Assembly: GCA_937132065.1 (NCBI GenBank)
Contig: CAKZNT010000013.1
Span: 1-64,000, forward strand
Direction of reading: 5' to 3'
DNA: 64,000 nt
Origin: an uncultured Loktanella sp.
GTDB lineage: Bacteria > Pseudomonadota > Alphaproteobacteria > Rhodobacterales > Rhodobacteraceae
The notes beneath the pieces are model-generated. The model was not told the origin of the DNA. It did not search any database and was given only the letters and a program-made list of their open reading frames with translations. Made by a program: the position numbers and the translations under genes. Below, piece by piece: positions 51,136 to 55,523 of the stretch. Numbering within the stretch: position 1 is the first letter of the stretch; each line of letters begins with the position of its first letter.

Positions 51136-51546
51136 ATGCCCGCCAAGAAAATGACCCCGACGAACCATGCCCGCTACTCCGAACTTGTGCGGCAAATGTA
51201 TGAGACCCTCGCCGATTTTCGCCACCCCGCGTTGATGAAATCGATCCTGCCCGCCGAGTGGCGCGAGATATCGGGCGACCCCGTGCCCGAGCGCGTGCGG
51301 ATCACGCTGCGCGTCGATGCAGATGTGGCGAAGTTTTATCGCAAGCTGGGGCGCGAGTATCAGGCGACGATGAACCGCGTGCTGCGCGCATTTATGCTGG
51401 CGCGGCTCACCGAGATGCTAGGCCCGCCCGATCTGGTTGATATCGAGCAGGCGGATGAGTTGGGCGCGGCCACGTTCGAGATGGAAGTGATGCTGCGCGA
51501 TCAGTTGGAGGAGTTGCGGCGGGGGCGGTTAGGCGCGCGCGGTTAG
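51136..51546 (+). CDS. BrnA-like ribbon-helix-helix antitoxin-family protein
   Basis: PERVRITLRVDADVAKFYRKLGREYQATMNRVLRAFMLARL. Confidence 0.65.
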   Translation: MPAKKMTPTNHARYSELVRQMYETLADFRHPALMKSILPAEWREISGDPVPERVRITLRVDADVAKFYRKLGREYQATMNRVLRAFMLARLTEMLGPPDLVDIEQADELGAATFEMEVMLRDQLEELRRGRLGARG

Positions 51547-51558
51547 ACGTGACTTAGG

Positions 51559-51735
51559 GTTCGGCCCGTATAAGAAACTGTCGAGGACAGTTTCAGGCCG
51601 AACGCGCGAAGCGCAGGGGGAACGATAGATGCAAGCGGCCCGCTCAGTAATCAGCCCGCGCCCGAACCGAGGGGCTGGTGCGAAGCGCCCGCCCCGTGGG
51701 GGCGGTTCGGGCGCTGCCAAATTGGAAATTTGGCA
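51559..51735. repeat. Cluster of perfect inverted repeats (multi-hairpin element)
   Basis: GTTCGGCC/GGCCGAAC enclosing GAAACTGTC-GAG-GACAGTTTC; GCGC-GAA-GCGC; 12-bp stem GCGCCCGAACCG/CGGTTCGGGCGC with nested stems; TGCCAAATT-GGA-AATTTGGCA. Confidence 0.8.
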
Positions 51736-51764
51736 ATATCTTACAAAGGATGGTAATTCGCTTC

Positions 51765-52565
51765 TTATGGTGCGGTAATTATGAAGCTCGGATAATCTAG
51801 CGACAAAACCTGATCGCCAGCCGAGTCTCTACGTGGTTCTGTTATGAACTTTATAGAGCTGTAGGGGATAAAGACCGCCCCTACATCAAAGGAAAAGAAT
51901 TTCCTTTTTCGAAAAATAATACCGCCAGACACGCGATGGAGCGGATAACCATCAAGTCTCGTATCGTCCAGAAACACAACTTGTTTCCAACTATACTCTG
52001 GAACTGTTCCAGCCCTCACCTCGCCTAAAACATAGCTGAAACTCAAAAGAAAAACCAACAAAACACTGGTCAGCATTTCGGTTCCGACTTTCCCCCTCCA
52101 TCGAAGAACCGCAGCAAAAATTAGAGCCACTAAAGGGATAAAAAGAAAATAGGAAGAACTTGCGTATCCGAAGCTCCCCGACCAAAAAGAAAAATTCAAG
52201 TACTTGCCCAACGCGTAGTAGAGCGCGAGAATTCCAGCCGCCATGGGCATCCATTTTTGGTATTTTTGCGTGTATTCAAAAAGTCGTCCGACGGTCGAAA
52301 ATAGAAAAAAGTATAGAGTAAACGAAATTACTAAGCTTATTAAAAAATACAGAATATCAGCTAACAAGTCTGCCGTGACTTCGAGGCCGACAAATGGGCG
52401 CATTCCGATTCCCAATTTATGCACATATCCAAACACATGCATGGATAAAATCGTGGACGCAGCAAATCCAAATCTTGCCGCAAAGTACGCAATTGGGTAG
52501 TTTTCAGCAAAATCAGCGTGAGCTTTTTGAATTCGGCCAAACCATTCAAAGTCTATCATTCGCAC
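51765..52565 (-). CDS. AT-rich orphan integral membrane protein
   Basis: 266-aa ORF with several predicted TM segments; composition clearly more AT-rich than neighbours. Confidence 0.6.
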   Translation of the reverse strand: MRMIDFEWFGRIQKAHADFAENYPIAYFAARFGFAASTILSMHVFGYVHKLGIGMRPFVGLEVTADLLADILYFLISLVISFTLYFFLFSTVGRLFEYTQKYQKWMPMAAGILALYYALGKYLNFSFWSGSFGYASSSYFLFIPLVALIFAAVLRWRGKVGTEMLTSVLLVFLLSFSYVLGEVRAGTVPEYSWKQVVFLDDTRLDGYPLHRVSGGIIFRKRKFFSFDVGAVFIPYSSIKFITEPRRDSAGDQVLSLDYPSFIITAP

Positions 52566-52590
52566 TAACCCTCACCACTCCATCCTCACC

Positions 52591-52662
52591 GAGTGCGGCC
52601 GTGATTGGCTTCGCCATTCCCTTCCCCGCACGCGCTCAAAAAATGGCCAGCTTTTAGCTGTC
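52591..52662. repeat. 72-bp imperfect direct repeat, copy 1
   Basis: GAGTGCGGCCGTGATTGGCTTCGCC...ATGGCCAGCTTTTAGCTGTC; ungapped match to 52684..52755. Confidence 0.8.
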
Positions 52663-52683
52663 AGTCAACGCCAAACGCCAACG

Positions 52684-52755
52684 GAGTGCGGCCGCGATTG
52701 GCTGCGCCAATCTCTTTCCCGCACCGCCACTCAACATGGCCAGCCTTTAGCTGTC
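52684..52755. repeat. 72-bp imperfect direct repeat, copy 2, overlapping the lepA stop codon
   Basis: GAGTGCGGCCGCGATTGGCTGCGCCAATC...ATGGCCAGCCTTTAGCTGTC; about 59 of 72 positions identical to copy 1 by hand. Confidence 0.8.
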
Positions 52756-54546: not shown

Positions 54547-54749
54547 GGAGTGCGCGCCTATGGTAATCGGGTTGCGTGTCAATGACGCGAGATTGCGGAT
54601 TTTGCAAGGGGAATGGTGGCAAACGAGGCGCTGGAGCACAGAGTCTTTCGCCAAGCCTGCGCGCCTTCAAGACTTCAGCCTCAGACATTTACGCAGGATG
54701 CATACTAACCTAAAGGTTGAATTTTATCGCCTTCAAATCGGGTACATTT

Positions 54750-55523
54750 ATGAGCGAAACATTTATTCCAGTATTCTTGTTGCTATTTGTCGTTATTATC
54801 ACCTCCGCAATCCTGAATTCGGCAGGAATGAAGGGGAAAAGGGGGGAAGCGCGTGTCAGGCGATGCCTTGAGCGATCCTTCGCTGCTGATGCAAATACGT
54901 TACTGAATGACGTAACACTCCCGACCTCTGACGGGTCGACGCAGATTGATCACATCCTCCTTAACAGATCCGGCATCTTTGTCATCGAAACAAAATTTAT
55001 GGCAGGTTGGATTTTTGGGACAGCCAAACAGTCAAACTGGACGCAATCAATCTACCGTCACAAAACGCGTTTCAAAAACCCGCTGCATCAAAACTACCGC
55101 CACATTAAGGAAATCCAATCACTGCTGAACCTTGACTTGCAGCACCTTCACAACATCGTTGTTTTCGCTGGTTCCGCGACCAAAAAAACCGCCATGCCCG
55201 CCAATGTCATTTGGAGAATGCGACACCTAGCCGCCTATATCAAAGGACATGACGACATTATTTTTAGCGATTCCGAGGTTCGGGAATATGCGCAAATTTT
55301 ACGTGAGACCGCCCTTGCTCCGGGCCGTCAGACCAATCGCACACATGTTAAAAACCTCAAAGCGCGCGAAAAAGCCAAAGCGCACGACCAGAGCGTTTGT
55401 CCGCGCTGTGCCTCGGCATTAGTCGAGCGCACAAACAAAAAAACCGGAGACCGCTTTTTGGGATGCACAAATTTTCCGAGTTGCCGCGGAACCCGCCGAC
55501 CGACCGAACCCACGCCCATTTGA
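54750..55523 (+). CDS. NERD (nuclease-related) domain protein with C-terminal topoisomerase-type zinc finger
   Basis: N-terminal TM; GKRGEARVRRCL...DGSTQIDHILLNRSGIFVIETKFMAGWIFG; CPRCASALVERTNKKTGDRFLGCTNFPSCRGTR. Confidence 0.85.
   Translation: MSETFIPVFLLLFVVIITSAILNSAGMKGKRGEARVRRCLERSFAADANTLLNDVTLPTSDGSTQIDHILLNRSGIFVIETKFMAGWIFGTAKQSNWTQSIYRHKTRFKNPLHQNYRHIKEIQSLLNLDLQHLHNIVVFAGSATKKTAMPANVIWRMRHLAAYIKGHDDIIFSDSEVREYAQILRETALAPGRQTNRTHVKNLKAREKAKAHDQSVCPRCASALVERTNKKTGDRFLGCTNFPSCRGTRRPTEPTPI

Follow-up and report, generated by a model that had tools for sequence, protein, structure and literature searches.

The described systems closest to the sequence analysed here are dispersed repeats of bacterial genomes. 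The REP and BIME sequences of E. coli and Pseudomonas, which are linked with RAYT transposases, are dispersed, extragenic, palindromic and hairpin-forming; they often lie right after stop codons or within operons and are built into composite units. ERIC, Correia/NEMIS, SMAG and RPE are composite intergenic repeats or MITEs, which are restricted to particular families, do not code for proteins, form hairpins and lack a transposase of their own. The string of hairpins at positions 51559-51735 of the window (the whole 64,000-nucleotide stretch of Loktanella DNA that was analysed) probably represents a composite copy of an undescribed, dispersed, intergenic structured repeat of the Rhodobacteraceae, which is REP/MITE-like in character. 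As in REP/BIME families, the copies are multiple and extragenic and share a conserved imperfect palindrome that can fold into a hairpin, and the placement after stop codons, the presence in operons and the composite build are also shared. As in ERIC and the other repeats of that group, the element is a family-restricted, non-coding intergenic hairpin repeat without its own transposase. However, it is longer than REP/BIME units, with a core of approximately 80 nt and an additional module of 56-62 nt, and most of its carriers have no Y1/RAYT gene. In contrast to the composite repeats and MITEs, it is made of two separate structured modules, one of which has fixed points where the other inserts, its stem sequences are interchangeable with the pairing being retained, and no parent transposon was found, the search for one covering Y1_Tnp. 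Inspection of two alignments of copies (A1 and A4) revealed no conserved foot tetranucleotide of the GTAG/GGAG type. The element stands apart from other dispersed palindromic repeats by its length, its two nested covarying modules and its lack of a resident mover.

The original prediction, made from the sequence alone, described four hairpins in this non-coding gap and read them as either a structured non-coding RNA or a composite REP/MITE-like element. All the stems were found in the sequence, and the RNA fold of 51545-51745 reproduced exactly the same stems with an energy of −92.8 kcal/mol, compared to −75.9 ± 4.6 kcal/mol for dinucleotide shuffles (z = −3.7; 0 of 200 shuffles as stable). 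Read on the plus strand, the string comprises module B (51559-51614), an inter-module linker (51615-51657) and module A, which is made of hairpins c (51658-51714) and d (51715-51735). Module B contains a closing stem with the arms GTTCGGCC (51559-51566) and GGCCGAAC (51596-51603), hairpin a (51574-51594) and mini-hairpin b (51604-51614), while the linker is in part common to a second copy in the same genome (AGGGGG..CGA.AGATGCAA). The 12-bp stem of hairpin c, GCGCCCGAACCG/CGGTTCGGGCGC (51658-51669/51703-51714), encloses GGGG/CCCC and GGTGC-GAA-GCGCC, and its 3' half was the best-conserved part of the repeat family in the alignment of copies. An alternative hairpin, CGCCCC-GTG-GGGGCG (51690-51704, plus strand), which was absent from the original prediction, competes with stem c; its T/G and A/C positions switch jointly between two subtypes in the alignment. 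Hairpin d, TGCCAAATT-GGA-AATTTGGCA, has highly variable stem letters (GCCCGGC/GCCGGGC in many copies) with the pairing retained. The number of hairpins as such is ordinary: when perfect hairpins are restricted to arms of no fewer than 9 bp and loops of 3-8 nt, just two remain in the whole 64 kb, namely a and d, and approximately 2.5 are given by a dinucleotide-model sequence of that length. The unusual part is their clustering, with a and d spanning 162 nt end to end around the 12-bp stem. The GCGAAGC mini-hairpins to which the prediction had drawn attention are present, but they occur at chance level alone (10 sites versus 7.2 expected).

The string is borne out above all by its recurrence. 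A DNA search identified the second copy in the same genome at C65:12662-12838 (75% identity over 131 nt), carrying two GAAACTGTC-type hairpins, and gave matches in 45 of 57 genomes of the genus. A covariance model built on the c-d module (R1) detected module A in 44 of 56 genus genomes, with up to 19 hits in one genome, and in 58 of 150 sampled genera of the family Rhodobacteraceae. In the class-wide sample, only 5 of 290 genomes were positive and four of these belonged to the same family, so the element is almost absent from the rest of the class. A single match outside the family (G257:C5:58121-58206, E = 3.9e-5) could be due to chance or transfer. Plasmids carrying the element were found in Phaeobacter, Leisingera, Tritonibacter, Ruegeria and Sulfitobacter, and module B alone also matched Roseivivax and Leisingera. 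No copies were present in the phage records searched, and none of the Rfam 15 models matched the element, either at the gathering threshold or permissively up to E = 1. A search of open-access literature on Rhodobacteraceae/Roseobacter repeats gave no description of the element. The original prediction had proposed both the copy search and the covariance-model search, holding that a repeat family would be a likelier reading than an RNA gene if the single hairpins had many scattered copies, and scattered copies were indeed found.

The genus matches consisted mostly of c and d alone, and some of a and b alone, which indicates that the string is made of two modules. Module A (c + d) is the core and module B is an optional insertion. 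Across the family, module A has the layout GGGCAGCGCCCGGACCTCGGGGTGGGTGC-GAA-GCGCCCTCCCCATGGGGGAGGTCCGGGCGCTGCCC followed by hairpin d, and in copies starting with GGGCAG stem c can be extended outward to approximately 18 bp, in competition with d. Some copies carry an apical loop of approximately 60 nt in place of GAA. In these long forms (L158-L162, L298-L316), which are present in many genus genomes, the stems are very conserved and the loop has diverged; the idea that it is a guide-like cassette was dropped, as the loops appeared by eye to be alignable and just diverged. Module B is laid out as GTGAGnnCCGTCTnG, a hairpin of 9-10 bp and AGGnn..AACGSGCGRAGCSC, with hairpin sequences of the types GAAACTGTC, GAATTGATCC, GAAAAGGTCC, GAAACGATCC and others. 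Inside module A it is found at two fixed points, one in the apical region or loop and one in the 3' arm of stem c, and one copy at rimO (genome G016) has module B at both. As B is nested in A, the element is composite, which bears out this half of the original proposal; both modules also recur separately.

Both modules showed covariation, whose absence the original prediction would have counted against itself. Among 89 distinct copies of module A, 95% of the cells were paired and 19 of 30 pairs were altered on both sides; all nine pairs of hairpin d were altered on both sides in the module A alignment. In the 28 aligned copies of module B, this was the case for 14 of 23 pairs. The covariation scores reached 0.315 for module A (0.142 shuffled, at most 0.079 with slid partners) and 0.420 for module B (0.134 shuffled, at most 0.087 with slid partners), values for which the shuffle controls overstate the significance, since the copies share descent, and for which alignment A3, being fitted to the model, is biased towards it, whereas the smaller A1 and the module B alignment were not fitted. 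Such strong covariation indicates that the folded form is constrained or is held palindromic by some process. The perfect pairing could be owed in part to the correction of quasi-palindromes by template switching instead of to selection. G.U cells outnumbered A.C cells (162 versus 40; 53 versus 17 by locus), which weakly suggests that the plus strand is the folded strand or is exposed to C-to-T change; the signal is weak because the distinct position/type classes of the two were nearly equal in number (17 and 15).

The copies occupy a characteristic position relative to genes. None of 110 copies was inside a gene called by our purpose-written codon-usage gene finder. When the copies were grouped into 58 locus clusters, 35 had a stop codon no more than 60 nt away, compared to 11 with a start codon (p = 8e-5), and in 26 of these 35 loci the end with hairpin d faced the stop codon (p = 0.006). 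The cues to the strand conflict, as the G.U excess points to the plus strand and the d-side stop preference to transcripts of the other strand. In at least one case the element is within an operon: Ruegeria TM1040 has a copy separating phnI from phnJ in its phn operon. The same two genes share 4 nt in Ruegeria SCSIO 43209, and the Tritonibacter phnI/phnJ site contains a diverged copy with altered arms that, judged by eye, still pair. In Phaeobacter, a copy between rfbB and rfbD is partly mis-annotated as a hypothetical protein, and in one outgroup genome a copy apparently lies between rpmD and rplO (gene names assigned by eye).

At 51559-51735 the string is flanked by convergent genes. The left neighbour (51136-51546, plus strand) encodes an RHH protein with the Pfam domain BrnA_antitoxin, beside which no BrnT toxin gene was seen; its homologues in three other genomes (G014, G036 and G035) also adjoin copies of the hairpin element. 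The right neighbour (51765-52559, minus strand) is an AT-rich orphan gene (GC 0.43) coding for 264 amino acids. The string could be a bidirectional terminator or insulator that ends the RHH (plus) and orphan (minus) transcripts and is kept beside newly acquired genes for this reason, a reading that we regard as unlikely. It would agree with the convergent neighbours, with the excess of stop over start codons among the loci and with hairpin d ending 29 nt from the orphan stop codon, many copies having a corresponding distance of −3 to 34 nt. However, no T-run follows any stem at 51559-51735 and the terminator scan made no call there. The copies between the co-directional phnI-phnJ, rfbB-rfbD and, apparently, rpmD-rplO genes argue in the same direction, since a strong terminator would be harmful at such sites.

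The means by which the copies moved was also considered, and no mover was identified. The original prediction had likened the string to REP elements; the likeness holds for the dispersed palindromic repeat, but not for a strict RAYT link. Y1_Tnp was found in 11 of 56 genus genomes, in some just as fragments, versus 44 of 56 for the element, and this RAYT-type gene was absent from the genome of the hairpin string. A RAYT as the mover was therefore unsupported, since most carriers have no resident Y1_Tnp. The flanks of occupied and element-free phnI/phnJ sites were too diverged to yield an insertion footprint or target duplication, and an element-free versus occupied comparison at the rpsA copy of G025 was confounded by variable genes, this site being another variable region.

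The variable genes beside the element recall further described systems. Minimal mobile elements in Neisseria consist of a conserved gene pair with differing accessory genes in between and no resident integrase (PMC3082526), and the defence islands of E. coli are hot spots for defence genes of a comparable kind (PMC10121019). Like these, the lepA slot consists of two conserved genes with a genome-specific gene between them and no apparent resident integrase. The slots described here differ from minimal mobile elements in that one edge bears a structured repeat family and in their sites, namely the 3' ends of lepA and rimO and the region upstream of rpsA; constant flanks with a varying gene were found at all three. 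The lepA slot extends from the lepA 3' end to the abhydrolase/small-membrane-protein/RHH side, and nearly every genus genome examined has a gene of its own there, usually an AT-rich one. The hairpin string marks an edge of this hot spot and the orphan gene is its cargo, so the placement between an RHH gene and an AT-rich orphan, which the original prediction had noted, proved informative. The orphan protein has several predicted membrane helices and a strand-rich C-terminal part, and structure prediction from the single sequence gave a pLDDT of 56. It belongs to no Pfam or PADLOC family, and none of the remaining genomes in the 56-genome genus set has a homologue. The far edge of the hot spot is formed by two tandem hairpin units that follow lepA (52588-52755; 75 nt, 81% alike), the second of which overlaps the last lepA codons. 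This overlap indicates that the lepA 3'-end/terminator region was duplicated at the hot-spot edge. Just past the lepA 5' end, a gene at 54717-55523 (plus strand) encodes a protein with a NERD nuclease-related domain and a topoisomerase-type zinc ribbon, and is possibly another accessory gene.

A second hot spot lies at the 3' end of rimO (L280, L281, L283, L284, L287, L288, L289, L291 and other loci). The sequence diverges immediately past TATGATTTGTGGGG, each cargo gene provides a new rimO C-terminus, and the cargo includes TIR-, T5orf172- and DUF3800-type genes. The third variable slot, upstream of rpsA, contains a different gene in each genome (L319-L325, L330). Among 33 cargo proteins, Pfam identified AbiU2 (3), DUF3800 (2), AbiJ, Abi_C, SEFIR, TIR, T5orf172 and others, and PADLOC models for bSEFIR, PDC, AbiZ, AbiJ and TIR were matched. 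PADLOC hits among 33 flank genes, used as a control, were fewer and mostly weaker, which is suggestive of an enrichment of defence genes among the cargo. By the company of the other slot genes, the orphan is a candidate phage-defence gene.

The orientation of the element at these slots bears on a second alternative, in which it is a recombination or attachment site, resembling attC at the end of a single-gene cassette, which would define the hot spots at lepA, rimO and rpsA. Integron cassettes likewise have a single variable gene with a folding element by its stop codon, which is a resemblance only. At lepA and at rimO, hairpin d is directed towards the cargo wherever the element is present, and the cargo has abrupt boundaries, formed by d on one side and by the 3' end of the core gene on the other. 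At rpsA, four genomes (G004, G005, G012 and G016) carry the element the other way round with respect to the core gene, with d again towards the cargo, G025 being an exception. However, inheritance within the genus accounts for much of this constant orientation. By independent locus, the d side was the AT-rich one at 12 low-GC loci and the other side at 5, and overall the AT-rich side coincided with hairpin d in 30 of 52 loci, which is not significant (p = 0.18); the stricter rule that d always faces the cargo was weakened by this locus-level test. Unlike attC, the element is found at fixed chromosomal sites (lepA, rimO, rpsA) and many of its copies are cargo-free. On inspection, GGCCGAAC/GTTCGGCC did not fit the attC core boxes RYYYAAC/GTTRRRY, and no recombinase was tied to the element. 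As cargo is also present at the lepA and rimO sites of genomes free of the element, the hot spots do not depend on it. We consider a recombination site quite improbable. Only a slim chance is given to the more specific proposal of an unrecognised Rhodobacteraceae system of single-gene cassettes that has the element as its recombination end; each cassette, with one AT-rich, often defence-like gene bounded by d on one side, would enter fixed sites at the lepA and rimO 3' ends and near rpsA by means of a trans-acting enzyme. A stand-alone structured small RNA gene, the other half of the original proposal, is very improbable, for in spite of the strong covariation of both modules, the wobble bias towards the plus strand and the very stable fold, the copies are many, scattered among diverse gene arrangements, nested in their modules and in places within operons, no plus-strand promoter-like site for the string was seen in the promoter scan, and Rfam gave no match.

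On the reading of the string as a dispersed REP/MITE-like repeat, copies would form part of transcripts, as a 3' or intercistronic segment, and fold into stable hairpins. By analogy with REP elements, these hairpins might then set the 3' end of the adjoining mRNAs or their stability and protection. Copies would spread, and modules be shuffled, via some process, and those at cargo edges might persist owing to their position after stop codons and to the common sequence that they offer for recombination. The element may also aid the exchange of cargo, as homology or as a site.

A covarying structured repeat that is absent from Rfam thus occurs in an abundant marine family, in over a third of its sampled genera. 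Its recognition is of use for annotation, as copies are mistaken for small hypothetical genes, e.g., on Phaeobacter plasmids, and also for studies of mRNA 3' ends in the Rhodobacteraceae and for tracing genome plasticity. The lepA, rimO and rpsA slots, with their single genes carrying abortive-infection, TIR, SEFIR and similar domains, provide a short list for new defence genes, including the orphan at 51765-52559.
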